IMG/VR virus record: IMGVR_UViG_3300042562_001368
Span: 1-30,398 of that record
DNA length: 30,398 nt
From: a virus
Direction: 5' to 3' (one strand)
Shown here in pieces: positions 1,049-24,870 of this stretch (its first letter is position 1; the number at the start of each line of letters is the position of its first letter). Both the position numbers and the translations under genes were made by a program. The notes beneath the pieces were generated by a model. That model made no database searches, had not been told where the DNA came from, and saw only the letters and a list, made by a program, of their open reading frames with translations.

Positions 1049-3430
1049 ATGGCAAATAAGAAAATATATCAATTCCCTATTGACGCTAATTTATCTGGTG
1101 ATAATTTGTTCTTAATGTGGGCTGATAATATAACTGCCGTTAGTACTTTATCAGGTGTTACAAATTATATAGCAAATAATATATCAGTTGAGGACATATA
1201 CGTTACTGGTGGTACATATGATGGTACTGATATAATTCTAACTAGAAATGATAATAATACTGTATCATTCCCCTTAACAATTCCAGATAATGTTCAAAAC
1301 CAATGGGTTATTGAATCAGCAAATACTGTAACAATTAAAACAAACTCACAAAGTTTTATTTATGGTGATTTAATTATCGAAGGGTTACTTAAATTAGAAG
1401 TTAATTCTAAATTAGTTGTCTTAAATGGTGATATAATATTAAATGGTGGTAGTATTAGTGGTGATGGTACCACACAATTAGTTGAAATCCCAACAGTTGA
1501 GATACATACGATTGACGCTAGATTGGAAAATAATTCATTAACTTTTGATACAAATCAAATGGTTGATGCGTATTCAGTTGATTTAACACCCATAAAAAGT
1601 TTATCCGATTTTGGTTTTGTGATAACACCACAATCTATAAATCAAAATATAGTGTTACCTAATAATTCTATAGTTCATTACCCATCACCATTAGTTATTG
1701 GTGATGGGTATGTGTTAGATATACCAGAAAATACAACATTAATAATTGACGATTTAGGTAATGGTAATTTAACTGGTGGTACATATTCTGATGGTACTGC
1801 AACATTCACTAACAATACAGGTGGTACCTTCAATGTGGATGGGTTTTATACAGGTAGTACTGAAGTATTTATAACTGGTGGAACATACTCTAATGGTACA
1901 GCTGAATTTACTAACAATACTGGTGGTACATTCAATGTAGATGGTTTTTATACTGGTAGTACTGAAATATTTATCACTGGTGGTACTTATAACCAAAGTA
2001 ATGGTACAGCTGAATTTACTAACAATACTGGTGGTACATTTAACGTAAATGGATTCTTAACTGGTTATACAAATTATTATACAACTGGTGCAACTTTAAA
2101 TGGTACTACACTTAACTTTAATAGAACGGATACTTTGTCAGCTTATACTGTTAATTTAAGTTCTTTAGGTGGTTCAATTAATTATGCTAATGTTATATTC
2201 GTTGATGCTACTAATGGTAATGACAGTACTGCTATTACAGGTAGGTTTGATAAACCATGTCAAAGTATATACCAAGCCTCATATTTAGCTTCATTAATCT
2301 CAAAAAGTTCAACAAGTAAAGCATTAATTTATATTAGAAAAGGTGGGTATTACTGGAATGGTGCTCTACAAAACTACTTGGATTACTACTCTGAACCTGG
2401 TGTTGTATTTACTGGTGGTAGGGTTACTGACCAATCTTATGGTGCAGTTGTAAGTAATTTTTATGGGTATTCAATATTTTCAAATACTGATGTGTATATA
2501 TCGGCAGCCTCAACAGTTAATTTTGAATTTGATTCTATGTCAAATAGTGGGGCTGCAATGTTAATAATACCATTATCAGGTATTGCAAATGTTACGGTAA
2601 AAGCTAATTATATTTATGCGTCAACTTCTGGTACTGGATATGGGTTTACTATACGAAATAAGGCTAATGTAACTATGAATGTTTCTAGGGATATTGAAGC
2701 GGTTCATAGTACACTTTCAGTTATTAGTCATAGTGGTGATATTGTTATTAATTGCCCAAAAATATATTTAGGAACTGGTAACATATATGGTGGTAATTTT
2801 AAACAAGCTTTAATACTTTATTCAACAAATACTGATTCTAAAATTATAATAAATGGTGATTTAGTTAATAAAGATACAATTTATTATGGTGGAATATCAA
2901 GTATGCTTACTTTTTGGGGTGGTGTACAAGGTACTGTAATTATTAATGGTAATATTATTGGTAATGGTACAGTTGGTACTTATTTAAATGGAAGTAGTTC
3001 AACTGGTAAATTAGTTGTTAATGGTAGTGTTTCTAGTAATTTAACACCAATTAACTTAAATGGTTCAAGTAGTTATTATTTTAAAAATGGTACAATATAT
3101 AATACTAATACATATTCTGGTTATGCTGGGTCACCAGCTGTGGCGATATTAGGCACATGTTATGTTTATTTCAATAATGTTAATTTTTATAATGGTGCTG
3201 ACACAACAAGTGCTATTGATATAAACTCAGCAACATGTTTTGTACATGTTTATAATTCACTAGCATCGGGTAATGGATTGGTAGGTTATTTTATGTATAC
3301 TGGTACTCCTGGTGTGACTGTACAAATACATAACGTTAGGTCAACAAAGGCATTACATGTAAACGTTGTTGATGGTTTAACACCAACAGGGTTAATTATT
3401 GATACAGCATTAAAACTTCCAATTTTTTAA
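1049..3430 (+). CDS. Modular tail fibre with C-terminal right-handed beta-helix
   Basis: A 793-residue putative structural protein. A short N-terminal segment is followed by a beta-rich module (QSFIYGDL near residue 101, then LVVLNGDIILNGGSISG) that recurs in the fibre at 7983. Residues about 242-345 hold three copies of a 34-residue Gly/Thr/Asn-rich unit (TGGTYSxGTAxFTNNTGGTF). From about residue 385 (FVDATNGND) the protein looks like a pectate-lyase-type parallel beta-helix: a DUF1565-like opening, then short beta strands broken by N-G and S-G turns. Such helices often bind or cut polysaccharide, but no catalytic residues can be assigned. The start is the ATG at 1049, which has an A-rich leader, no Shine-Dalgarno sequence, and an ATATTTAT motif 15 nt upstream. 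It is probably a side fibre or receptor-binding protein. Confidence 0.7.
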   Translation: MANKKIYQFPIDANLSGDNLFLMWADNITAVSTLSGVTNYIANNISVEDIYVTGGTYDGTDIILTRNDNNTVSFPLTIPDNVQNQWVIESANTVTIKTNSQSFIYGDLIIEGLLKLEVNSKLVVLNGDIILNGGSISGDGTTQLVEIPTVEIHTIDARLENNSLTFDTNQMVDAYSVDLTPIKSLSDFGFVITPQSINQNIVLPNNSIVHYPSPLVIGDGYVLDIPENTTLIIDDLGNGNLTGGTYSDGTATFTNNTGGTFNVDGFYTGSTEVFITGGTYSNGTAEFTNNTGGTFNVDGFYTGSTEIFITGGTYNQSNGTAEFTNNTGGTFNVNGFLTGYTNYYTTGATLNGTTLNFNRTDTLSAYTVNLSSLGGSINYANVIFVDATNGNDSTAITGRFDKPCQSIYQASYLASLISKSSTSKALIYIRKGGYYWNGALQNYLDYYSEPGVVFTGGRVTDQSYGAVVSNFYGYSIFSNTDVYISAASTVNFEFDSMSNSGAAMLIIPLSGIANVTVKANYIYASTSGTGYGFTIRNKANVTMNVSRDIEAVHSTLSVISHSGDIVINCPKIYLGTGNIYGGNFKQALILYSTNTDSKIIINGDLVNKDTIYYGGISSMLTFWGGVQGTVIINGNIIGNGTVGTYLNGSSSTGKLVVNGSVSSNLTPINLNGSSSYYFKNGTIYNTNTYSGYAGSPAVAILGTCYVYFNNVNFYNGADTTSAIDINSATCFVHVYNSLASGNGLVGYFMYTGTPGVTVQIHNVRSTKALHVNVVDGLTPTGLIIDTALKLPIF
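1772..2077 (+). repeat. Three tandem 102-nt (34-aa) repeats in the fibre gene
   Basis: Units begin at 1772, 1874 and 1976 with a period of exactly 102 nt. Each encodes TGGTYSxGTAxFTNNTGGTF followed by NVxGFYTGSTExFI or a close variant. Two further copies are in the fibre gene at 7983 (about 8425-8630). A 61-nt stretch at 1946-2006 differs from 8496-8556 at only one base. Confidence 0.85.
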
Positions 3431-3806: not shown

Positions 3807-6800
3807 ATGGGAAGAATAATTCAACAAAACAATGGTAAAACAACTGTATATATTACAGGTGAGAATATTAATAATATACCAGTATCAACTAACACATATT
3901 ATTTAGGTGTTGATTTAACCACAGGTTTATATGAAAAATTAAATCCTAGTGGTGCTATCATTAACCTTGAGTCTTCAGGTGGTGGTTCATTTACTGGTGG
4001 AACTGTTAATGGTGCTACAAACTTTACAAATGGTTTAAGTGCAAATACTTTTTCGGCAACAACTTATCTTAATTTACCTGGTGATAGTGTGGAAGTTACT
4101 TATTCAGAACTTGTTGATAAAATAACAGGTGAAACTTTGTCTACGGGTAGTTACTATATTATAACTGATTTCCAAACTTGCTATGACCAACCAGATTTTG
4201 ATTACAACGGTGGTCCGATAATATCAGGAAATTATAAGCAAGGTCCAGTAGAACCTATTATTGTTTTTGCTACCAGTGCTAATACTATTAGTTCTATCGC
4301 ATATCAATCAGCTTACCCTAATGATACAATCAAATATGATTGGTCTTGGGATATGACAGAAGTGACCAATGGAGCTGCATTTGGTAGAATTACAGAGCGT
4401 GTTGATGAATTTAACAATAGAACTGATTATGACCATAGAAATATACTATTTAAAAGATATAGATTATTTACTCAAAGAGAAGGTTTAAGAATAAATGGTA
4501 CAATACAACTATTGGGTGACGGTACCGTTAATGGAACTGACACTACATTTACAGGTTTGACAGTTGGTGATGTGATTTATATACCATCAACCAACCCTAG
4601 TTTTTATGAAATTTTAAGTATTTCTGGTGACACATTAATGTCAGTTTCAGGTGATACAATAGGTTCAGTAGGTCTAGGTACAGTAATTTACAAAACAATA
4701 GAAGAAACTAATGATAGTAATGGTTATTTTAGCTTTAAAAGAACAAATGTTAAAACAGATGATTTTATCGAATACACAACATTTGGAGATGCAACATCAA
4801 ATGATTACGCTAAAAATAACTATATAGGAAACTACGCAAACAACTACACAAATATCGATAGTGGAACTTTCATATTAGCAAACAATGTATTTTTAGAAGG
4901 ACAATATGAAAGTAATAAATTTGGTGATTATTGTTATAACAACACATTTGGAACCGACAATCAAAATAACGTTTGGGGGGATTGGTGTTATGAAAACGTA
5001 TCAGTAAACGATATTGATGATTGTATTATAGGTCATTATTTTAATCGTAACTTAATAAATGCAAATTTAACCTCTAACCATATTGGTAATGATTTTAATA
5101 ATAACCGATTATTGAATGAGAATGGTACTGATTTTGAAGACAACATTATTGGTAATGGTTTTAGTGACAATCTTATTTATTCTGGGTTTTATAAAAATAA
5201 AATATTAGATAACTTTAATAATAATGTAATTGGTGACTTTGGTAACCTAGATAATTTTGAATTCTATAGAAATTATATTCGTAATAATTTTAACAACAAT
5301 ATCATAAGACAAGATTTCCAAAACAATCAAATAGGTACAAACTACCAACAGAATACTATTAATGGTGATTCTCAAGGTAACACAATACTGAATGGGTTTA
5401 ATAATAATACTATTGGTAGTTATTTTAGTGTAAACGATATTGGTGACGATTTTAATAATAATACAGTTAATGATAGTTTTAATGAAAATACTACTAAATA
5501 CAGTTTTTATAATAATGTTATTAGTAATCAATTTAATACCAACGATATAGGTACAAACTTTTATAATAACAACCCATCTAATTTAGATTTATTTGGGTGG
5601 AACGACTTATCAACAGTATCAACAAGAACATATGATACTTTTTATAATTCACTTAATGGTGATTTTGGGAAAATTTTAGGTAAAGAACTTGTGATGGAGG
5701 TTACATCAACATCACAATATTTCAAGATTAAATTTACACAATGGTCAACTAACGACAATGGATTTCAATACACAAGAGAAGAAATTGATTCTTCTGGTAA
5801 TACTTTAGGTCCTGTTATAACATTCACTTTAGTTAATGGTGGAACTGACGTGGATTACATTGTTCCAGGTGATGTAGAAATAACAAGAAGTGGTACTGAC
5901 CCTATTTATAATTCTTTTGCTGAACCTGGTTGGGGTAGTTCAGTTTCACCAAGTGGTACATCATGGAACTCAATCTATACAGAACCTAATAATGGGTTAA
6001 ATTTCGCCTACAATAAAATAGGAAATGAGTTTCAAAATAACACAATAGGAAATGATTTTGGTTTCGGAGGCAGTCAGAATCAGGGTAATGTAATAAACGA
6101 AGCTTTTCAATTTAATACGATTGGAGGATTTATGTACAATAATGTTATAGGTAATGACTTTACCAATAATACAATTGGTGATAACTTTGAAAACAACGCA
6201 ATTAAAAATTATTTCGCAAGCAATACAGTTGGTGATGTTTTTGAGAGCAACACAATTGGTGATTTTTTCAACACCAACACAATTGGTGATAATTTTGAGA
6301 GCAACACCATTAAAAATTATTTCATAGGAAACTCTATAGAAAATGGTTTTGAAAGTAATGAAATCGGTAACTATTTTGGGAATGATGGTTCAGGCATTGG
6401 AGCGCCAGTTCAAAATATTATTTTTGATGATTTTAAATACAACAATATTGGTAATTTCTTTGGTAATGACACTAATTTCCCTTCAGTTGGTGGTGGTACA
6501 AACGGTGACGGTGGAAACATCATAAACACTGGCTTCCAATTTAACGTGATTGGTGATAATGTGTTATTTAACGCACTAAACCTAAACTTCACCAATAATA
6601 AAATTGGAAACGACTTTTGGTTTAACGTATTTGGTCAAAACACATCAGATAATACAATAGGTAATTTATTTGTTGGTAACTCAGGTATCAGTGGATTCCC
6701 AACTGAAATTGGTGATAATTTTATATCTAATAATTTGGGTAACTACTCATCATTTAACGAAATTGATACAAACTTCCAATATAACAAAATAGGTCATTTC

Positions 6801-7367
6801 TTTGGTAACGCTGGTAGTGGAACACAAAACATTATTTCTACTGGATTTACCAATAACAACATCGGTAATTACTTTGGTGATGACGGTTCTAATACTAGTG
6901 GGGGTAATAATATTGGGGTTAACTTTACATTGAATAAAATTGGTTCTCTTTTCTATTCCAACACTATTGGTGATGACTTCAACAACAACATAGTGGGTAA
7001 TGAATCTGATAATAACACTGTGGGTACTAACTTTAGTAAAAACAATATAAGTAATGGGTTTTTCAATAACAACATCGGTAATTACTTTTTTATCAACACA
7101 GTGGGGGATAACTTCAACGGTAACACGGTGGGTAATTCCACTTTTTCCAACACAGTGGGTAATGACTTTTTTATCAACACAGTGGGGGATAACTTCAGAA
7201 GAAACCAAATTGAGTGCTCACCAAGTAGTATAGATTTCACAACGGGACCAGCAACTCACGTATACGGTGATTATAACTGTATAATATTCAAAAGACCTGA
7301 TAGTACATTAAGATTATCTTACTACGATAACTCAGATGTATTAAACATAACAAACATTGACGCATAA
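3807..7367 (+). CDS. Giant beta-solenoid protein with nonapeptide repeats (probable fibre)
   Basis: A 1186-residue protein with two long arrays of a nine-residue repeat, roughly N-x-[IV]-[GK]-[ND]-x-F-x-[NS] (for example NTIGDNFEN, NAIKNYFAS, NTVGDVFES). The arrays span about residues 337-590 and 735-1133. An aperiodic domain of about 140 residues (beginning LFGWNDLSTVS) lies between them, and a mixed domain rich in YxxxD and Gly precedes them. Loop insertions such as GNDGSGIGAP interrupt the second array. The even spacing of Ile/Val and Phe inside Asn/Gly-rich units predicts a beta-solenoid. It is not the RTX nonapeptide (no GGxGxDxL) and not the pentapeptide repeat. The C-terminal portion (ATHVYGDYNC; LRLSYYDNSDVL) may be a cap or trimerisation piece. 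No enzymatic motif was seen. It is probably a long fibre or spike on the virion. Confidence 0.65.
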   Translation: MGRIIQQNNGKTTVYITGENINNIPVSTNTYYLGVDLTTGLYEKLNPSGAIINLESSGGGSFTGGTVNGATNFTNGLSANTFSATTYLNLPGDSVEVTYSELVDKITGETLSTGSYYIITDFQTCYDQPDFDYNGGPIISGNYKQGPVEPIIVFATSANTISSIAYQSAYPNDTIKYDWSWDMTEVTNGAAFGRITERVDEFNNRTDYDHRNILFKRYRLFTQREGLRINGTIQLLGDGTVNGTDTTFTGLTVGDVIYIPSTNPSFYEILSISGDTLMSVSGDTIGSVGLGTVIYKTIEETNDSNGYFSFKRTNVKTDDFIEYTTFGDATSNDYAKNNYIGNYANNYTNIDSGTFILANNVFLEGQYESNKFGDYCYNNTFGTDNQNNVWGDWCYENVSVNDIDDCIIGHYFNRNLINANLTSNHIGNDFNNNRLLNENGTDFEDNIIGNGFSDNLIYSGFYKNKILDNFNNNVIGDFGNLDNFEFYRNYIRNNFNNNIIRQDFQNNQIGTNYQQNTINGDSQGNTILNGFNNNTIGSYFSVNDIGDDFNNNTVNDSFNENTTKYSFYNNVISNQFNTNDIGTNFYNNNPSNLDLFGWNDLSTVSTRTYDTFYNSLNGDFGKILGKELVMEVTSTSQYFKIKFTQWSTNDNGFQYTREEIDSSGNTLGPVITFTLVNGGTDVDYIVPGDVEITRSGTDPIYNSFAEPGWGSSVSPSGTSWNSIYTEPNNGLNFAYNKIGNEFQNNTIGNDFGFGGSQNQGNVINEAFQFNTIGGFMYNNVIGNDFTNNTIGDNFENNAIKNYFASNTVGDVFESNTIGDFFNTNTIGDNFESNTIKNYFIGNSIENGFESNEIGNYFGNDGSGIGAPVQNIIFDDFKYNNIGNFFGNDTNFPSVGGGTNGDGGNIINTGFQFNVIGDNVLFNALNLNFTNNKIGNDFWFNVFGQNTSDNTIGNLFVGNSGISGFPTEIGDNFISNNLGNYSSFNEIDTNFQYNKIGHFFGNAGSGTQNIISTGFTNNNIGNYFGDDGSNTSGGNNIGVNFTLNKIGSLFYSNTIGDDFNNNIVGNESDNNTVGTNFSKNNISNGFFNNNIGNYFFINTVGDNFNGNTVGNSTFSNTVGNDFFINTVGDNFRRNQIECSPSSIDFTTGPATHVYGDYNCIIFKRPDSTLRLSYYDNSDVLNITNIDA
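4816..7208 (+). repeat. 27-nt (9-aa) repeat arrays in two blocks
   Basis: Degenerate 27-nt tandem units encode the nine-residue repeat at about 4816-5577 and 6010-7208. Some copies are recent: 33 nt at 7084-7116 recur exactly at 7165-7197, an offset of 81 nt or three units. Confidence 0.8.
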
Positions 7368-7982: not shown

Positions 7983-10900
7983 ATGCCAAATAATAAACTA
8001 ATATTAAGGAGTATAAATAGTCCGTGGATAACACCATTTAACGATATTACTACAGGTAGTGTATTATCTTGGGCTGACGTTGATAACAACTTTATATACT
8101 TAAAGGGTGAACTTATATATTCAGGGCAAACCTCTGGTACTAATTTAATTTTAAATAAAATTAATGGTAATAATATATCTATTGATTTAACTCAATTTGA
8201 AGCTGAAGGTAATAGATGGCATATACCATCTGGTACAACGGTAGAAATTGCTACTGATTATCAAAGTTTTATTTTTGGTGACTTATATATTGAAGGGTTA
8301 CTTAAATTGAATGACGGTGCTCAATTAGTTGTATTAAACGGTGATATTATACTTAGTGGTGGTAGTATTAGTGGTAATGGTACAACATTATTAATTGAGT
8401 TACCTCAATTTGATACGGTAGTTACTGGTGGTACATATTCTAACGGTACAGCTACATTTACTAATAATAGTGGTGGTACATTTAATATAAATGGATTTTA
8501 TACTGGTAGCACTGAAATATTTATCACTGGTGGTACTTATAACCAAAGTAATGGTATTGCTACATTTACAAATAACACTGGTGGTACATTTAATGTAAAT
8601 GGATTCTTAACTGGTTATACAAATTACTATACAACTGGTGCAACATTGGTTGGTTCCGTTGCTTATTTTGATAGGACGGATGCATTATCAGCATATACAT
8701 TAGATTTATCATCAATAGATTTTACTGGAAATACATCTGGTAATTGTATTGGTGATTTATGGGTTTCAAATCTTCACGGTTGTTCACCAATTACAATTCA
8801 CGATTCAATACAATCATCAGTATCAACGGCCAGTGGTGATTATTCATTTGCATTTGGTTCTGGTACAATAGCTAGTGGTCAAATATCACATGCCGAAGGT
8901 ATTCAAACTACAGCAAGTGGTGATTATTCACATGCTGAAGGTAATTTAACAGTGGCTAGTGGTCAATCATCACACGCAGAAGGTTATTTTTCAACCGCTA
9001 GTGGTGATTATTCACACGCCGAAGGGTTTGGTTCAACTGCTAGTGGTGAGTTTTCACATGCTGAAGGTAGACAATCCACAGCTTCTGGTGGTGGTGCATC
9101 ACATGCTGAAGGTCTTTTAACAATGGCTACTGGTGAATCATCACATGCTGAAGGTTATGTATCAACAGCTAGTGGTATTGCATCACACTCTGAGGGTTCT
9201 AACACTATTGCTAATGCTATTGCATCACATGCTGAGGGTAATGTAACAACAGCTAGTGGTACAGCGTCACACGCTGAAGGTAATTTAACAACTGCTATTG
9301 GTAATTATTCACATGCTGAAGGTTTTACTACAAAGGCAATCGGTGACACATCACATGCTGAAGGTATTTTAACTACCGCTAGTGGTAATTATTCACATGC
9401 TGAAGGTCAATCAACAACAGCTACTGATGCTAATTCGCATGCTGAGGGTTTTAGTACAATAGCTAGTGGTACTAATTCACATGCTGAAGGTGCAAATACA
9501 ATTGCTAGTGGTAATACATCACATGCTGAAGGTCTTCAAACAATAGCTGGTGGTACATATTCACACACTGAAGGTGGTTTTACAACAGCTAGTGGTAATT
9601 ATTCACATGCTGAGGGTAGTAAAACAACAGCTAGTGGTCAATATTCACACGCTGAAGGTGATAGAACGATAGCTAGTGGTGATACGTCACATGCTGAGGG
9701 TAGAGCTACAACTGCTAGTGGTTTGAATTCACATGCTGAAGGTGGTTTAACAATTGCATCAAATACAGCATCACATGCTGAAGGTTCAGGTACAGTTGCT
9801 AGTGGTTTGAATTCACATGCTGAAGGTAGTAGAACGATAGCTAGTGGTAGTAATTCACACACTGAAGGTAGTGGTACAATGGCCAGTGGTGATACAGCAC
9901 ATGCTGAAGGTATAAGTGTAAGAGCTTATGGTCAAGGTTCGCATGCAGAAGGTAGAGCTACAACCGCTAGTGGTAGTTTTTCACATGCCGAAGGTGTTAA
10001 TACAATAGCTAGTGGTAATTTTGGTTCACACGCTGAGGGTGATGCAACAATAGCTAATGGTATTGCTTCACACGCTGAGGGTAATTTAACAACAGCTAGT
10101 GGTCAAAATTCACACGCTGAAGGTTACACTACGACTGCTAGTGGTTATGCATCACATGCTGAGAATGTAAGTACAAGAGCAACTGGTAGTGGTTCACATG
10201 CTGAAGGTAATGGTACAACATCATTTGGTCAAAATTCACATGCTGAGGGTCTTGTTACAACATCTGTTGGTAGTTGGTCACATTCTGAAGGTAGATTAAC
10301 AACAGCTAATGGACTTGCATCACATACTGAAGGTAATTATACAATAGCTGGTGGTAATACAGCTCATGCTGAAGGTTCTGGTACAACTACATCAAATATG
10401 GCAGCACATGCTGAAGGTTATTTAACAATAGCTAGTGGTTATGTATCACATGCTGAAGGTCAACAAACAACAGCTAATGGTTCTCGTGCACACGCCGAAG
10501 GTATTTATACAACAGCAAGTGGTACTTATTCACATGCTGAAGGGTATCAAACAAATGCTAGTGGTAATACATCACATGCTGAAGGTACTGGTACAATAGC
10601 TGGTAATTATGTGTCACATTCTGAAGGTCATTATACAAAAGCAATGGGTTCAAATTCACATGCTGAAGGTGCAAATACAACAGCTAGTGGTACTGTTTCA
10701 CATGCTGAAGGTACTGGTACAATAGCTAGTAGTTATAATTCACATGGTGAAGGTTATTATACAATCGCTAGTGGTACTGCATCACATAGTGAGGGTTCAA
10801 ATACAACAGCTAGTGGTAGTTATTCACATTCTGAAGGTTATTTTACAAAAGCTCTTGGTAATTTCGGTTCACATGCTGAAGGTTTTTATACAACAGCTAA

Positions 10901-11753
10901 TGGTAATGGTTCACACACTGAAGGTTCAGGTACAACCGCTAGTGGTAAATATTCACATAGTGAAGGTGCCCTTACGACAGCTAGTGGTGATTATTCACAT
11001 GCTGGTGGTCTTAATTCAATAGCTAGTGGTGATGGTTCATTTATACATTCATCAGGTTCAACTGTAAGTGGTGCACGTAGTGTGGTATTGGGTGGTCAGA
11101 ATATTACTGGCGCAACGGCTGACACTGTATATGTACCTAAATTAAATATAAACACAGCACCAGCGAATGATAATTCATTAACTGATGTGTTGGTCAGAGC
11201 AAGTGATGGTGAAGTTAAATATAAAATAATACCTTTGTCAACATCTTATGGGTTATTTGCTCAAACAGCAACTGGACCAAGTGTAACAGGTATTGCTAAA
11301 CAAAGTATTATAGGTACAGGAGTAGGTACTTTATCAGTTCCAGCAAATGGATTTTCTATTGGTGATTCTTTTACTGCGGCCTTAGATGGACAACTATCAT
11401 GTTTAGGTTCAGCAAGATTACATATTCACGTTGAAACATTGGCAGGAGTAGTTCTTGCAGATACGGGTGAAATTGCAATGGAAACAACTACCTCAAAAGC
11501 GTGGTTATTAACTTTGTATTTTACAATTAGAAAAATAGGTGGGGTAGGTGTTGCATCTATTTCATCGGGTGGTTTATTTTCTTATATTAAAAATGCTGGA
11601 ACTAATTTTGAAGGATTTGTATTAAGTAATATTAATACTACAACTTTTGATACAACCGTAGATAATACATTAGTTATTACTGTTCAATGGAATACAAGTA
11701 GTGCAAGTAATACTATTCAATCATATAACTTCATCTTACAAAAAGTATATTAA
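7983..11753 (+). CDS. Long tail fibre with 51 YadA-head-like repeats and C-terminal receptor-binding-like domain
   Basis: A 1256-residue fibre. Residues about 94-230 repeat the modules of the fibre at 1049 (QSFIFGDL, then LVVLNGDIILSGGSISG, then the TGGTY/TNNTGGTF units). A short linker (CIGDLWVSNLHGCSPITIHD) leads to 51 units of about 14 residues of the YadA/Hep_Hag head type (T-x-A-S-G-x-x-S-H-A-E-G-x-x) over roughly residues 300-1020. In trimeric autotransporter heads such repeats form a left-handed trimeric beta-roll. A conserved cap follows (VVLGGQNITGATADTVYVP), shared with the fibre at 23416. The last about 170 residues look like a globular beta-sandwich tip (FDTTVDNTLVITVQWNTSSA). It is probably a trimeric side or long tail fibre. 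A glycosyltransferase gene lies two genes downstream. Confidence 0.8.
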   Translation: MPNNKLILRSINSPWITPFNDITTGSVLSWADVDNNFIYLKGELIYSGQTSGTNLILNKINGNNISIDLTQFEAEGNRWHIPSGTTVEIATDYQSFIFGDLYIEGLLKLNDGAQLVVLNGDIILSGGSISGNGTTLLIELPQFDTVVTGGTYSNGTATFTNNSGGTFNINGFYTGSTEIFITGGTYNQSNGIATFTNNTGGTFNVNGFLTGYTNYYTTGATLVGSVAYFDRTDALSAYTLDLSSIDFTGNTSGNCIGDLWVSNLHGCSPITIHDSIQSSVSTASGDYSFAFGSGTIASGQISHAEGIQTTASGDYSHAEGNLTVASGQSSHAEGYFSTASGDYSHAEGFGSTASGEFSHAEGRQSTASGGGASHAEGLLTMATGESSHAEGYVSTASGIASHSEGSNTIANAIASHAEGNVTTASGTASHAEGNLTTAIGNYSHAEGFTTKAIGDTSHAEGILTTASGNYSHAEGQSTTATDANSHAEGFSTIASGTNSHAEGANTIASGNTSHAEGLQTIAGGTYSHTEGGFTTASGNYSHAEGSKTTASGQYSHAEGDRTIASGDTSHAEGRATTASGLNSHAEGGLTIASNTASHAEGSGTVASGLNSHAEGSRTIASGSNSHTEGSGTMASGDTAHAEGISVRAYGQGSHAEGRATTASGSFSHAEGVNTIASGNFGSHAEGDATIANGIASHAEGNLTTASGQNSHAEGYTTTASGYASHAENVSTRATGSGSHAEGNGTTSFGQNSHAEGLVTTSVGSWSHSEGRLTTANGLASHTEGNYTIAGGNTAHAEGSGTTTSNMAAHAEGYLTIASGYVSHAEGQQTTANGSRAHAEGIYTTASGTYSHAEGYQTNASGNTSHAEGTGTIAGNYVSHSEGHYTKAMGSNSHAEGANTTASGTVSHAEGTGTIASSYNSHGEGYYTIASGTASHSEGSNTTASGSYSHSEGYFTKALGNFGSHAEGFYTTANGNGSHTEGSGTTASGKYSHSEGALTTASGDYSHAGGLNSIASGDGSFIHSSGSTVSGARSVVLGGQNITGATADTVYVPKLNINTAPANDNSLTDVLVRASDGEVKYKIIPLSTSYGLFAQTATGPSVTGIAKQSIIGTGVGTLSVPANGFSIGDSFTAALDGQLSCLGSARLHIHVETLAGVVLADTGEIAMETTTSKAWLLTLYFTIRKIGGVGVASISSGGLFSYIKNAGTNFEGFVLSNINTTTFDTTVDNTLVITVQWNTSSASNTIQSYNFILQKVY
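8845..11040 (+). repeat. 51-unit 42-nt YadA-head-like repeat array
   Basis: SH-containing units run from the TCA at 8886 to the one at 10995, a distance of 50 x 42 + 9 nt. This fits 51 units with three one-residue insertions (GGGASH and two NFGSH units). The core is SHAEG with variants SHSEG, SHTEG, AHAEG, SHGEG, SHAEN and SHAGG. Units diverge at the two residues before S/A-H and at positions after G. Confidence 0.9.
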
Positions 11754-11762
11754 AAAAAAATT

Positions 11763-12023
11763 ATGAAAAAATTAACAAGTGGCGATATCGCTTTAACTAA
11801 AATTGTTCGTGCAACATTTTTAAATGACAAATGGGTAATATTAGTAACAGATACTAATAATTACCTATACAATGTATCATTCACAGGTTTAGAATCTGAT
11901 GATAACAATACAATATTATCTAATACACACACAGCTTTATTAGATGTTGATAAATATGAAGTACCAGTTTTACCAGTTGATGTTACTAGGGAAGATATAG
12001 TAGGTTCAACACCGAAACTGTAA
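11763..12023 (+). CDS. Hypothetical protein, 86 aa
   Basis: I do not recognise this protein. It begins 9 nt after the stop of the long fibre and has no promoter motif, so it is presumably expressed with the fibre. The sequence suggests a small beta-rich domain (WVILVTDTNNYLYNVSFTGL) followed by a short acidic stretch (ESDDNNT) and a Val/Pro-rich tail (YEVPVLPVDVTRED). There is no signal peptide, membrane span or catalytic motif. Position suggests a fibre accessory or assembly protein. Confidence 0.6.
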   Translation: MKKLTSGDIALTKIVRATFLNDKWVILVTDTNNYLYNVSFTGLESDDNNTILSNTHTALLDVDKYEVPVLPVDVTREDIVGSTPKL

Positions 12024-12064: not shown

Positions 12065-13114
12065 ATGAATTATATTAAGTTTAATTATAAAACAACATTA
12101 CCTAAAGAGGCAAATGCCCCATCAGTAACTATTGGTGGGGATTTACTTGTTGAATATGATGTAACATTTTATGTTGTAAAATCTGATGGTATGGAAAAAG
12201 TAAAATCAGTTAAATGTAAAACTGGTGAAACGGTATATTCAAATATAGCGCAATGGTATATGAATTGGTATACAACTGTTCACCATGATGGGTTATTAGT
12301 TGCTGAAAATAGTTTTAACCCAAAGAATTCAGTTGTTTTTATAAAATTAGATGCGTATGCTTTAGGTGATAATATTGCTTGGGTACCATATATTGAAGAA
12401 TTTAGAAAAAAATATAACTGTGTTTTAATTTGCTCAACTTTCTATAATGATTTATTTAAAGATATTTACCCAAATATTTTATTTGTAGCGCCGAACACAA
12501 ATGTTGATAATATCTATGCTCAGTATTACATAGGTGCATCTAATGATGGTAATCAAAAATATTCACCTGTGGTGGTTGATGAAATGCCATTACAATATGT
12601 TGCATCATCAATATTGTATTTACCAATGGTTGAGATAAGACCAGAATTGGAAAAACAATTAAGAGATATGAAATTCAATAGAAAATACGTTTGTATTTCT
12701 GAATTTGCAAGTCATGAAAAAAAACATTGGAAATGTGAAAATGGGTGGCAAGATGTTGTTGATTATCTAAATTCAATTGATTATGATGTATTTGTTATAT
12801 CTAAAGAACCAACTAATCTTACAAATGTAACTGATTTAACTGGTGATAGGTCAATACTTAATCGAGCTCAAACATTACGAAATGCTGAATTTTTCATGGG
12901 TGTTAGTTCTGGGTTGTCCTGGTTGTCTTGGGGTGTTGGTACTCATACATTTTTAATTAGTGATGTTACCCAAATGAATCATGAATTTCAATCTAATGTC
13001 ACTAGAATATCAGCTAATCCAACTTTAACAAATGTTAATTATTATGCACCATTTGTTACTAAATCAGAAACTGTTATTAATTCCATAAAAAAATACTTAG
13101 AAAGTAAAAGTTAA
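12065..13114 (+). CDS. Glycosyltransferase of the bacterial autotransporter heptosyltransferase (TibC/Aah-like) type
   Basis: A 349-residue protein. It resembles the bacterial autotransporter heptosyltransferases, GT9-related enzymes that move ADP-heptose onto Ser in the repeats of autotransporters such as TibA and AIDA-I. Visible family signatures in order are a beta-rich N-terminal domain (VTIGGDLLVEYDVTF, then NWYTTV); ALGDNIAWVPYIEEF around residues 99-113, with the catalytic-type Asp at D102; CSTFYNDLF followed by a YP pair; CISEF, then EKKHW around residues 217-222; VISKEP; and SSGLSWLSWG at 281-290 in the nucleotide-sugar site. It is shorter than cellular members (about 400 aa), and no Cys remains after C224, so the Cys-rich iron-finger described for TibC seems absent. 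It lies directly downstream of the YadA-like fibre and its small partner, which suggests that virion fibres are the acceptors. The sugar used is unknown. Confidence 0.75.
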   Translation: MNYIKFNYKTTLPKEANAPSVTIGGDLLVEYDVTFYVVKSDGMEKVKSVKCKTGETVYSNIAQWYMNWYTTVHHDGLLVAENSFNPKNSVVFIKLDAYALGDNIAWVPYIEEFRKKYNCVLICSTFYNDLFKDIYPNILFVAPNTNVDNIYAQYYIGASNDGNQKYSPVVVDEMPLQYVASSILYLPMVEIRPELEKQLRDMKFNRKYVCISEFASHEKKHWKCENGWQDVVDYLNSIDYDVFVISKEPTNLTNVTDLTGDRSILNRAQTLRNAEFFMGVSSGLSWLSWGVGTHTFLISDVTQMNHEFQSNVTRISANPTLTNVNYYAPFVTKSETVINSIKKYLESKS

Positions 13115-13137: not shown

Positions 13138-13506
13138 ATGGATTTCTATATAAATAAAAATTCTACTTTACCAATAATGAAACTTGATGTTGTTCAAGAT
13201 GGTAGATATGATGTGAAAAAAATATATGAACTGATACAAAATTCAAATATGTATTTTTCTATGTCTGAATTGGAGACTGGTGTTAAAGTAATTGGTAAAA
13301 AACCAGCACTTTGTATTGCCAAACCATCTGACTGTGGTTATGATGAATATTATATAGCATATAAATTTTCAGAAAGAGAAACAAAAAAACCAGGTACCTA
13401 TGTTGGTCAATTTACTATTGAGTTTTTAGATGGTTATGGTACTTTAATTATGCCTATTAGAGAAGAATTATACATACATATTTTAGACGGTAGTATTAAA
13501 AAATAA
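13138..13506 (+). CDS. Small BppU-like baseplate/fibre adaptor domain protein
   Basis: A 122-residue protein with the layout of a BppU-type N-terminal domain: a first strand after a short lead (NSTLPIMKLDVVQDGR), a mid-strand describing a bounded quantity (IYELIQNSNMYFSM), then YDEYYIAYKF, TKKPGTYVGQFTIEF and a closing LIMPIREELYIHI. In other phages such domains attach receptor-binding proteins to the baseplate or form the base of a fibre. The gene has its own ATATTTAT motif and stands between the glycosyltransferase and the DNA polymerase. The fold assignment is a pattern-level inference; the protein could equally be a free adaptor or an assembly factor. Confidence 0.5.
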   Translation: MDFYINKNSTLPIMKLDVVQDGRYDVKKIYELIQNSNMYFSMSELETGVKVIGKKPALCIAKPSDCGYDEYYIAYKFSERETKKPGTYVGQFTIEFLDGYGTLIMPIREELYIHILDGSIKK

Positions 13507-18533: not shown

Positions 18534-21479
18534 TTATTCTATTTTATCTTCTATTATATAATCCACAATTTCATCAACTGCGGTTGTATTATTATCATTT
18601 CTTGACATAATTTGATTAATTATGCTTTTCTTCCTATTCAAGGTATGCCACATTGTACTAACTATTGTGTTCTCAAATAAGTTATAATAAACTGTAACAT
18701 TATTTTTTTGACCTAGACGGTAACAATTATGTACATTATAATTACCCACTACAAATGAGTGGTCATCTTCAACTGATAAATCATATACACGCTCATATCC
18801 TCGTTTTGGTTTACTAATATGTAGTGATTTTATTGGGTATATAATATATTCACCTTTTTTAACTATTTTATTTAATTTATTATCCACATTAGTTGAACAC
18901 TCGCTTTGGTAATATTCTAACCCGTTAAGAGTTTTAATAGAAAATCTAACATTGTGGTTTAAATTGGCATTGTATCTAACTAATTCAGACCCTAATCTAG
19001 TTGATGCTGTAACATTTTGTTGTATATTTTTTCGTTCATAACCATCACCATGATTAAAACCATTTAATAGTGATTGTAACTGTTCATCATTTAATTCATC
19101 AACCCATTCTGGCATTTTTTTATTTTTAACACCCTTTCCAAACCATTTATTAAAATTAATTGCTAGATTTTTAGAATATATACTACATGTTTTTACATTA
19201 TTTTTATCGGTATATTCACCATGATTATCTATATTAAATGAATTTTTAAATATATCTATTATATATTTTGCAGCATCATACATTTTATTATTATCAATTT
19301 TTTGACATATATTAACACTAGCACCCTTGTTCTTATTATTATCAATAGCCCAACCTTCTGCGATAAAAAATCCAAACGCATATAATAATTCATTAGTTAA
19401 TTCAACTTTATCAACCATATTTACCAATCTACCATTTTTTTGTTCAACATTAAAATTATTAATGAACGTATCACTAATATAGTTAGTTACATCTAAATAT
19501 TCTTTTCTTAAGTTAGGTTGTTTGTTTGATTTTAAAGTTAAGAAATGTTTTTTAATATTTAAATTTTTAGCCTCAATCCATTCAAATGTATTTAATTCAG
19601 AATCATATATAAATAATTTATGGTCATCAGTTACTGATAATTCTCTATTGTAACCAAATGCATTAATATCAACTCTAAGTTTTTTTCGTTCTAAATGAGT
19701 ATGTTTGCCCACAACCTTTTTAAAATTACCTAAATGTGTATAAACTATATCACCAATTTCAATATCTTCAATTTTTTTATAACCATAATTAGTCATAACT
19801 AATTGCCCCCCAAAAATACATCTATCTTCAGCCTGTTCTGAATTACCAGGTACCCAATCAAATGAATTAAAAATAACATATGTTGCCCTTGTTAATGTAA
19901 TTGCAACACCAGCTGATATAATATTACCTATAAATACCATTGGTCCACCTTCCATTTGGAATTTATCTACTGATTTTTGTTTTTCTTTTTCATTCATTTC
20001 ACCGTAATGAATAACGCAATTATTACCATAGTGTTCAGCTAGAGCATGTAATTCATCAGTAAAACATGTGAAGATAACTACCTTATGACCTTGCTCAATC
20101 ACTTCATTAACTAATTCAATAGTTTCTGGTATAGTTTCCATTGCGATATATTTTCTTAGTAAACCTAATTCAACTAAATCTCTTTGTATGGTACCTTTTT
20201 TCTTTTGCTTTTTCCTTTCAAGTAGATAATCTTCCCATAGTGAGTCATATTCTAGTTGTTGTTTATTTGACATTTTAAAATAATTCGGAACTCGTATTTT
20301 ATCTGGCATATCTAAAACTTCATCTTTCATTCTTCTTAATAAAAGATTCCTAGTTTTGATAGATAATTCATCTAAATTTGATGCACCATTGGTAATCCAA
20401 ATTTTTCTTTTTGTTCTATTCTTTAATGTTGTTGTAATTTGTTTACCTTCACAATATCTTTGAGCATAGAATTTCCAATTATCAACTAATGGTGATTTAA
20501 TTAATCGTAATAAGTTATAAAAGTCCATAGGTCTGTTTGCTACAGGTGTTCCTGATAATAACCAAACTCGTTCAATTCCATAATCTACACAAAGTTCAGT
20601 CATAATAGCACCACGAATACTTTTATGGTTTCTAAGGTTATGAGCTTCATCTATAATACACAAATCAAAATTAGAGTTAACTAAATCTCTAATCGGTGGC
20701 ATACCATCATTTTTATCATCTTTTAATGTATGGAAATTTTTCAATATATCAAAGTTAATTATTGTAAACTTTGCGTGTGACCATCTCGAACCACTGATTA
20801 TCGTAATATCTTCTTCTTGTAAATAATTAATTTCTCTTTGCCAGTTTATTTTTGCTGATGATGGGCAAACAATTAATATTTTTTTAGCACCACTTTCAAT
20901 AGCAGCCACTATTGATTGCATTGATTTACCTAAACCCATATCATCAGCTAGTATTGCACCATTTCTAGTCAATAAGAATTTTATACCTGATTTTTGATGG
21001 TCTAATATTTTTCTACCAACTTTACCTTCTGAATCAATAAAGCTGTCTAGTTTCTCATATTTTTCAAAATCAACATCAATATCACATTCTTGAAAATATG
21101 GGTCATCAACTACTTGTGTTTTTGGTAAAAAATACATTCCAGACTTTGCTTGTTTTTTAGTTAATTTACCATATACATGATAAGTCTTTTCAGAATCAGC
21201 TAACATAAATTCAATTAAAATCCTTTCTGGTTTGAATGTTAATTTTTCATTTTGTTGTAATGATTCACCTAAGAATTCAGTTATATTAACAATTTTATTA
21301 ATTAACATAGGTTCTTTATCAAAGTTATCCATTACATATTTACTTTGGGTTGGTGTAAGAATTATTTTACCGTCAGCCAATAATTTTTTTTTCATTTTTT
21401 TTATATATGGATTTTTACCTTCATAACCCTTAAGTTTTGAGATTGCTGAATACCCACCTATTTCATCTAAATTTATCAA
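18534..21479 (-). CDS. SNF2-type helicase precursor interrupted by an intein
   Basis: A 981-residue precursor. Removing the intein (residues 554-918) leaves a 616-residue SF2 helicase of the SNF2/HARP-like group. Motif I is DDMGLGKS (K185), motif II is D277-E-A-H280, and motif III is WLLSGTPVANRP. Motif IV/V follow as KVVIFTCFTDEL, then FIGNIISAGVAITLT. Motif VI (QAEDR then CYRLGQ) is rebuilt only after splicing. The intein therefore blocks the arginine-finger motif until removed, making activity dependent on splicing. Such enzymes remodel DNA forks or displace proteins; a UvsW-like role in replication or recombination is an inference. The frame opens with TTG at 21479 and is closed by a stop two codons upstream. 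The first in-frame ATG is at residue 29, so the start is uncertain. Confidence 0.85.
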   Translation of the reverse strand: MINLDEIGGYSAISKLKGYEGKNPYIKKMKKKLLADGKIILTPTQSKYVMDNFDKEPMLINKIVNITEFLGESLQQNEKLTFKPERILIEFMLADSEKTYHVYGKLTKKQAKSGMYFLPKTQVVDDPYFQECDIDVDFEKYEKLDSFIDSEGKVGRKILDHQKSGIKFLLTRNGAILADDMGLGKSMQSIVAAIESGAKKILIVCPSSAKINWQREINYLQEEDITIISGSRWSHAKFTIINFDILKNFHTLKDDKNDGMPPIRDLVNSNFDLCIIDEAHNLRNHKSIRGAIMTELCVDYGIERVWLLSGTPVANRPMDFYNLLRLIKSPLVDNWKFYAQRYCEGKQITTTLKNRTKRKIWITNGASNLDELSIKTRNLLLRRMKDEVLDMPDKIRVPNYFKMSNKQQLEYDSLWEDYLLERKKQKKKGTIQRDLVELGLLRKYIAMETIPETIELVNEVIEQGHKVVIFTCFTDELHALAEHYGNNCVIHYGEMNEKEKQKSVDKFQMEGGPMVFIGNIISAGVAITLTRATYVIFNSFDWVPGNSEQAEDRCIFGGQLVMTNYGYKKIEDIEIGDIVYTHLGNFKKVVGKHTHLERKKLRVDINAFGYNRELSVTDDHKLFIYDSELNTFEWIEAKNLNIKKHFLTLKSNKQPNLRKEYLDVTNYISDTFINNFNVEQKNGRLVNMVDKVELTNELLYAFGFFIAEGWAIDNNKNKGASVNICQKIDNNKMYDAAKYIIDIFKNSFNIDNHGEYTDKNNVKTCSIYSKNLAINFNKWFGKGVKNKKMPEWVDELNDEQLQSLLNGFNHGDGYERKNIQQNVTASTRLGSELVRYNANLNHNVRFSIKTLNGLEYYQSECSTNVDNKLNKIVKKGEYIIYPIKSLHISKPKRGYERVYDLSVEDDHSFVVGNYNVHNCYRLGQKNNVTVYYNLFENTIVSTMWHTLNRKKSIINQIMSRNDNNTTAVDEIVDYIIEDKIE
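18726..19820 (-). other. Intein with LAGLIDADG (DOD) homing endonuclease, in helicase motif VI
   Basis: A 365-residue intein starting at Cys554. Block A is C-I-F-G-G-Q then VMTNYGYKKIEDIEIGDIVY. Block B is T-D-D-H (intein positions 64-67). The first endonuclease motif is LLYAFGFFIAEG, with acidic E708 of the precursor. Block D is KKMPEWVDEL. The second endonuclease motif is LLNGFNHGDG, with D812. Block F is VYDLSVEDDHSFVV, and the element ends V-H-N followed by Cys919 of the extein. All splicing residues (Cys1, TxxH, His-Asn, Cys+1) and both endonuclease acidic residues are present, so splicing and homing should both be active. It sits between R553 and C919, in QAEDR|CYRLGQ. Confidence 0.95.
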
Positions 21480-23415: not shown

Positions 23416-24870
23416 ATGTCTATTTCTTATATTATTAACAACAATGATTCTACATTAACGGGTCAAACCATTTTTGGTGCATTATCACAAGGTAGTGGTG
23501 CAACTGCTAGTGGTTTATATTCACACGCTGAAGGTTATTTTTCAACCGCTAGTGGTGATTATTCACACGCCGAAGGGTTTGGTTCAACTGCTAGTGGTTT
23601 ATATTCACATGCTGAAGGTGCAAATACAATAGCTAGTGGTAACACATCACATGCTGAAGGTAATGAAGTAATAGCTAGTGGTGAGTATTCACATGCTGAA
23701 GGTAGTAGAACAACTGCTAGTGGTATTGTATCACATGCTGAAGGTGAGAGTACAACAGCTAGTGGTCAATATTCACACGCTGAAGGTGATAGAACGATAG
23801 CTAGTGGTGATACGTCACATGCTGAAGGTTCAGCTACAACCGCTAGTGGTGAGTTTTCACATGCTGAAGGTGAAAATACAACAGCTAGTGGTGAGTATTC
23901 ACATGCTGAAGGTAGTAGAACAACTGCTAGTGGTATTGTATCACATGCTGAAGGTGTTAGTACAATAGCTAGTGGTGCTGCGTCACACGCTGAAGGTGAT
24001 AGAACGATAGCTAGTGGTGATACGTCACATGCTGAGGGGTCTTTTACAATTGCTAGTGGTACTTTTTCACATGCTGAAGGTCAAAATACAACAGCTAGTG
24101 GTAATTATGGTTCACATGCTGAAGGTCAAAATACAATAGCTAGTGGTGATAATTCACACGCTGAGGGTAGTTATACAAAAGCATTTGGTCAAGCTTCACA
24201 CGCTGAAGGATATAGTACAACTGCTAGTGGCATTCAGGCGCATTCTGAAGGTTATTTAACAACAGCTAGTGGTTATTATTCACATGCTGAAGGGATTTCA
24301 GCAAAGTCTTTTGGTGCTTATTCACATGCTGAAGGTAATGCTACAATAGCTAGTGGTGATACGTCACACGCTGAAGGGTATCAAACAACTGCTAGTGGTT
24401 ATTATTCACATTCTCAAGGTTATATTACATTAGCTAGTGGTCAAAATTCACATGCTGAAGGTCAGCAAACCTCAGCAACAACATATAATACACATGCTGA
24501 AGGTATTGGTACACTTGCTAGTGGTACGGGTTCACACGCTGAAGGTTATGGTACCAAAGCAACTGGAATTAACTCACATTCACAAAATTTATATACAATA
24601 GCATCTGGGTTTCATTCACATGCGGGTGGTTCAGGTTCAACCGCAACTGGTATTTCATCATTCGTCCATTCATCTACTTCAACAGTAAGTGGTGATAGAA
24701 GTGCTGTTATCGGTGGTGAGAATATAGTTGGCTCAACAGCTGATACAGTTTATATGCCTAAGATTGAATTAGCTGAGGTTGCTGCTTCAATTATAATGAA
24801 AAGTCCAGATGGTACAAGATATAAGCTAACCATAGCTAATGGTGGTACAGTATCAGTAACAACTGCTTAA
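23416..24870 (+). CDS. Second, short YadA-head-like fibre
   Basis: A 484-residue protein made almost entirely of 27 units of the 14-residue T-x-A-S-G-x-x-S-H-A-E-G repeat. A short lead (SISYIINNNDSTLTGQ) precedes the repeats, and a cap (SAVIGGENIVGSTADTVYMP) matching that of the fibre at 7983 follows. It then ends in a short tail (ELAEVAASIIMKSPDG) where the longer fibre has its globular tip. Units near 23530 and 23752 are identical in DNA to parts of the long fibre 14 kb away, so recombination between the two genes is likely. It stands where T4 has its terminase genes, between gp15 and gp18. It is probably a head- or tail-attached fibre, or a cartridge for the long fibre. Confidence 0.75.
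   Translation: MSISYIINNNDSTLTGQTIFGALSQGSGATASGLYSHAEGYFSTASGDYSHAEGFGSTASGLYSHAEGANTIASGNTSHAEGNEVIASGEYSHAEGSRTTASGIVSHAEGESTTASGQYSHAEGDRTIASGDTSHAEGSATTASGEFSHAEGENTTASGEYSHAEGSRTTASGIVSHAEGVSTIASGAASHAEGDRTIASGDTSHAEGSFTIASGTFSHAEGQNTTASGNYGSHAEGQNTIASGDNSHAEGSYTKAFGQASHAEGYSTTASGIQAHSEGYLTTASGYYSHAEGISAKSFGAYSHAEGNATIASGDTSHAEGYQTTASGYYSHSQGYITLASGQNSHAEGQQTSATTYNTHAEGIGTLASGTGSHAEGYGTKATGINSHSQNLYTIASGFHSHAGGSGSTATGISSFVHSSTSTVSGDRSAVIGGENIVGSTADTVYMPKIELAEVAASIIMKSPDGTRYKLTIANGGTVSVTTA
23503..24630 (+). repeat. 27-unit 42-nt repeat array with a 210-nt higher-order duplication
   Basis: SH units run from 23521 to 24616 (26 x 42 + 3 nt, so 27 units with one inserted residue, NYGSH). 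Within it, 23673-23746 and 23883-23956 are identical over 74 nt at an offset of exactly 210 nt (five units). The segment DRTIASGDTSH also recurs at the same offset, so a five-unit block was duplicated recently. Confidence 0.9.

Follow-up and report, generated by a model that had tools for sequence, protein, structure and literature searches.

The question raised by this locus is what a glycosyltransferase gene resembling those that modify bacterial autotransporter adhesins is doing beside a repeat-rich fibre gene in a phage, and which molecule its product would modify. The window (the whole stretch of 30,398 nucleotides analysed here, IMG/VR record IMGVR_UViG_3300042562_001368) contains the features listed in Table 1. 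Our preferred reading, to which we give a probability of about 0.55 on the strength of sequence comparison and modelling, is that the enzyme O-glycosylates repeats in the YadA-head-like fibre encoded next to it (fibre 1), most likely with heptose. This reading is based on the family, fold, catalytic residues and conservation of the enzyme and on its recurrent, co-directional linkage to fibres with SHAEG repeats.

Table 1. Position of the enzyme, the fibres and the small genes of the window.
Feature	Position	Strand	Description
Fibre-like protein	1049..3430	+	GGTYSNGTAEFTNN-type repeats in common with N-terminal part of fibre 1
Fibre-like protein, Asn-rich NNTIGDNF repeats	3807..7367	+	Period 9/18 (from L002/L003 homologues)
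Fibre protein 1, proposed substrate	7983..11753	+	1256 aa; Pfam YadA_head PF05658, E=9e-23
86-aa gene between fibre 1 and enzyme	11763..12023	+	Conserved in close relatives
Compact BAHT-like (Aah/TibC-like) glycosyltransferase	12065..13114	+	349 aa; ATG start; without iron finger or thumb
122-aa gene	13138..13506	+	23 bp downstream of enzyme
Fibre protein 2	23416..24870	+	484 aa; 26 SHAEG repeats; Pfam YadA_head, E=1.5e-21

Family, fold and active site of the enzyme

All four motifs quoted in the first-pass annotation as the signature of the TibC/Aah glycosyltransferases (CSTFYNDLF, KKHW and SSGLSWLSWG among them) were found in the open reading frame. The profile search and structure prediction which that annotation had proposed both pointed to the same family. 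The best NCBIfam match was TIGR04414 (hepto_Aah_TibC), the autotransporter strand-loop-strand O-heptosyltransferase family, with E=1.1e-53 and a score of 182.5 bits, just below the curated cut-off of 200 bits. When the PDB was searched by sequence, TibC (4rap) and its mutant (4rb4) were the sole matches (E 1e-23). An AlphaFold2 model, built from 33 window and viral sequences, had a mean pLDDT of 95.3 and a pTM of 0.91, and Foldseek placed TibC chains first (E 2.9e-26, TM 0.84 over 382 alignment columns). The TibC-like protomer, an N-terminal beta-barrel followed by a GT-B catalytic core, was recognised in the model, where seven strands lie ahead of residue 90. Two comparisons gave dN/dS values of about 0.22 and 0.09, indicating purifying selection on the gene.

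In TibC, Asp110 is the catalytic base and Thr226, Lys230, Arg286 and Trp305 hold the sugar (PMC4358343). The corresponding residues of the phage enzyme are D102, S216 (a Thr to Ser change), K220, R267 and W286; the Asp, Lys and Trp are conserved throughout the clade of finger-less phage enzymes described below, and the Arg is kept in every locus except L012. S281 occupies the position of TibC P300, where AAH, the AIDA-I heptosyltransferase of the same family, has S294; this position sets the choice of donor epimer, and AAH accepts both ADP-heptose epimers. From AAH the enzyme otherwise differs as it does from TibC, in finger, thumb, phage context and partner.

Absence of the iron finger and thumb

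TibC, the autotransporter heptosyltransferase of ETEC and a member of the BAHT family, forms a dodecamer that requires both an iron finger, made of four Cys (339, 342, 358 and 370), and a beta-hairpin thumb, of which F265 and V266 make the ring contacts (PMC4358343). The phage enzyme, which is 22% identical to TibC, has no iron-finger Cys, and indeed no Cys at all past residue 310; F265/V266 fall in an alignment gap, and the thumb region is approximately 9 aa shorter than that of TibC. As finger and thumb are both missing, a TibC-type dodecamer is not expected, and the enzyme is presumably active as a monomer or small oligomer. The TibC/Aah assignment of the first-pass annotation was thus borne out by sequence, fold and catalytic residues, with the correction that the two dodecamer-building elements are missing.

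Scans of viral contigs recovered hundreds of relatives of the whole Aah/TibC family. The finger-less phage relatives, all without the four-Cys pattern, formed a single clade in a tree of all columns (support 100/99), and support was still 99 when the finger columns were removed; finger-bearing phage and bacterial relatives fell outside it. The tree is unrooted, and loss of the finger, rather than gain, is suggested by the fact that TibC, most bacterial relatives and the other phage branches have it. Two cellular sequences (L089 and L096) likewise lack the Cys pattern. The sole clade member from a cellular genome collection, L086, lies on a contig of 3.7 kb that was binned with Rickettsiales; by eye, this contig also has GIY-YIG-like and ClpP-like ORFs, and it may itself be phage. 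Taken from sequence and model, the gene is best described as encoding a compact form of the Aah/TibC enzymes that is specific to phages.

The finger-bearing phage proteins are longer, in many cases carry a fused GT4, methyltransferase or other domain and lie on separate tree branches; the four Cys were kept in those that were fetched. UniProt A0A6J5SVC1 and the protein of Microcystis phage Mel-JY01 (WWT39291) have a BAHT-like domain, and such genes are often near Ser/Thr/Gly-rich repeat proteins; the local excess of Ser/Thr-repeat proteins around finger-bearing phage genes was not significant (P =0.24). A0A6J5SVC1 bears the database name 'Glycosyltransferase Aah/TibC', so that the occurrence of the family in phages, as such, is on record. 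The suggestion that its use by a phage is new agrees with the literature search, in which the full texts of open-licence papers yielded none that described a TibC-like enzyme of phages, its finger-less form or its fibre linkage.

The neighbouring fibre

Fibre 1 scored 80.5 bits against the YadA-head family (PF05658; Pfam cut-off 25), placing it within that family. The first-pass annotation had counted 51 SHAEG repeats rich in Ser and Thr; the repeats are real and Ser plus Thr make up 29% of the repeat region, while the count came to 50 by a loose pattern and 34 by a strict one, with 46 spacings of 14 aa and 3 of 15 aa. Parts of the NCBIfam models of the trimeric autotransporters BimA, Ata and EmaA also matched, in the repeats only and far under their cut-offs, and the PDB match was the BpaC head (7o23, E=6e-16). 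On these matches the partner is trimeric and YadA-like and not a beta-helix of the TibC type. The gene order was as annotated, the enzyme lying downstream of the fibre and of a small partner gene (86 aa). As with TibC, therefore, the enzyme gene adjoins a repeat-rich fibrous protein; here, however, a phage fibre carrying YadA-head repeats takes the place that an autotransporter substrate has beside the BAHT enzymes. The proposal that the fibre is a TibC/Aah-like repeat partner accordingly stands as regards the link, which recurs in about 14 clusters, and falls as regards the repeats, which are not of the strand-loop-strand beta-helix kind. Neither the 86-aa nor the 122-aa gene matched a Pfam or PHROG family; a small gene resembling the latter sits downstream of the fibre in L009.

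Linkage of the enzyme to SHAEG fibres

The finger-less enzymes were clustered at 90% identity, giving 33 clusters (one, the 777-aa L294, is an outlier and perhaps not a true member). An ORF with the SHAEG motif was observed within 3 kb of the enzyme in 15 of these. L276 was discounted as spurious, its lone motif being in a short ORF on the opposite strand; in the remaining 14 clusters the fibre and the enzyme were all co-directional. SHAEG ORFs accounted for 15 of 267 genes within 3 kb and 0 of 320 beyond 4 kb (Fisher P =6e-6), a P-value which overstates independence because the clusters are partly related phages, and which depends in part on later choices, as the distance cut-offs were changed from 4/5 kb to 3/4 kb once a first result had been seen. 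It supersedes an earlier test on 22 clusters (P =0.03). As the enzyme adjoins a Ser/Thr-rich tail-fibre gene in about a dozen lineages, it probably sugar-coats the phage's own fibres.

About half of the finger-less clade has no adjoining SHAEG fibre. Over whole contigs, the fibre was near the enzyme in four records, 21 and 61 kb off in two and absent from two unlinked contigs of 109 and 149 kb; in one further record the contig ended within the neighbouring fibre. These unlinked members favour the foremost alternative, that the enzyme chiefly glycosylates a phage protein other than the SHAEG fibre, for instance a different repeat fibre from the module or, in the unlinked loci, a solenoid such as a leucine-rich-repeat protein. 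A leucine-rich-repeat protein gene, with no SHAEG fibre nearby, was seen in the two unlinked loci checked (L012, 7989-9395; L015, 1561-2973), and the window has further repeat fibres at 1049-3430 and 3807-7367. We nevertheless regard this alternative as unlikely, given that the adjacent repeat fibre is nearly always of the SHAEG type (about 14 clusters) and that in several loci the enzyme gene is immediately beside it (9 bp in L023, 80 bp in L009). Within the window, the Asn-rich fibre-like protein, which matched no Pfam, PHROG or NCBIfam family, is a possible other target, and fibre 2 a possible second substrate.

In the reverse direction, 80 SHAEG-fibre loci were searched and a BAHT-like gene was found in one, which was the window's own relative. 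The notion that a SHAEG fibre implies the enzyme was therefore rejected; most phage SHAEG fibres are without it, making the enzyme an optional modifier. Flavobacterium phage immuto has a SHAEG fibre and no annotated glycosyltransferase within 8 kb. Since phages of Flavobacterium and Tenacibaculum have SHAEG fibres, phages with the fibre-enzyme pair may infect Bacteroidota.

Other activities considered

Modification of a host glycan (the LPS core), altering receptors or blocking superinfection in the manner of the WaaC/WaaF-type GT9 enzymes, would fit the weak Pfam match to Glyco_transf_9 (E=3e-5) and the recovery of WaaC as the second fold family (TM 0.47). It is nonetheless improbable, as TibC is far better by sequence and by fold, including the TibC-type N-terminal beta-barrel region, the LPS heptosyltransferase I model gave E=0.011 only, and the gene is linked to fibre genes.

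Similarly improbable is a non-enzymatic role as fibre chaperone or assembly factor. The precedent is BimC of Burkholderia, a BAHT homologue encoded beside the trimeric YadA-type autotransporter BimA, with which it works; BimC was reported to be without transferase activity (PMC6439308), and TibC is inactivated when its finger is mutated (PMC4358343). Against this, the catalytic residues are conserved as described above. The BimC-BimA pair, in which BimC binds iron, is at the same time a bacterial parallel for the fibre reading, as the phage fibres match the BimA model. Glycosylation of phage DNA can be set aside as highly improbable: DNA glycosyltransferases are generally known to be frequent in phages (PMC12619734), but the top folds include no DNA glucosyltransferase and the enzyme is linked to fibres.

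Fibre glycosylation is the reading that we retain. Besides the features and linkage of the enzyme, it is favoured by the glycan genes around the enzyme in relatives, by the second BAHT-like gene near fibre 2 in close relatives and by the heptose genes of two huge phages (all described below); counting against it are the reverse search (1/80), the unlinked half of the clade, the inactive TibC finger mutants, the lack of activity of BimC and the absence of heptose genes in near relatives.

Proposed mechanism and sugar donor

During phage assembly the enzyme would move a sugar onto Ser, and perhaps Thr, residues in the fibre repeats; the sugar would most likely be heptose, drawn from the host ADP-heptose pool, and the outcome would be a hyperglycosylated fibre shaft. 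We infer enzymatic activity, the heptose donor and the fibre as substrate, as well as a possible benefit, for instance in shielding, stability or receptor choice. Of 19 records tested, 2 had heptose genes. Both are huge phages that encode finger-bearing relatives: LR756504 has GmhA, and LR756501 an HldE-type kinase domain that scored below its cut-off. Near relatives of the window had neither GmhA nor HldE in their records, and the donor would therefore have to come from the host.

There is a parallel in the glycosylated virions of mycobacteriophages (Freeman et al. 2023, cited in PMC12619734), in which phage glycosyltransferases act on virion proteins; there, capsid and tail-tube C-termini are modified.

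More tentatively, with the odds somewhat against it, phages may have domesticated an adhesin-glycosylating enzyme in a compact, non-dodecameric form dedicated to YadA-like fibres, some adding sulfation or chain extension, so that shafts would be hyperglycosylated with a host LPS precursor. If fibre glycosylation is correct, protein O-glycosylation of tail fibres would be a recurrent trait among environmental phages, and TibC-type catalysis would be possible without the iron finger and dodecamer. Enzyme, candidate substrate and repeats are together in one short cluster, which could be expressed in a laboratory strain of E. coli as a direct test case. E. coli makes ADP-heptose.

Accessory glycan genes and a second cassette

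Glycan-building neighbours in the relatives comprised GT4, DUF2827, FkbM methyltransferase, GT32-like, and sulfotransferase plus APS kinase genes. The last pair was observed beside both the enzyme and the SHAEG fibre in L011 (4144-5411) and in L024 (7845-9561, the sulfotransferase by eye only), which suggests that the fibre glycans are sulfated; other linked loci carry GT4 (L029) or DUF2827 (L020).

Two close relatives, L128 and L129, with flanks 97-98% identical to the window, were found to have an extra stretch at the position of window junction 23336/23337, so that the junction is either a natural deletion or an assembly join. In L128 this stretch is 14 kb long, adjoins SHAEG fibre 2 and encodes a TSG-repeat fibre, a collagen-repeat fibre, an FkbM methyltransferase, a GT4/FkbM/GT32-like fusion and a finger-bearing BAHT-like protein; in both relatives this second BAHT-like gene is about 3 kb from fibre 2.

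Two minor observations were made elsewhere in the window. The ORF at 11-991 has an N-terminal duplicated segment (NQFLIYGRAR...CGSCGAPRDSD). The SNF2-related helicase at 18534-21479 on the minus strand is interrupted by a likely intein, for which the Pfam Intein_splicing match (E=1e-8) narrowly missed its cut-off, and is about 365 aa longer than its L002-L005 homologue (616 aa).
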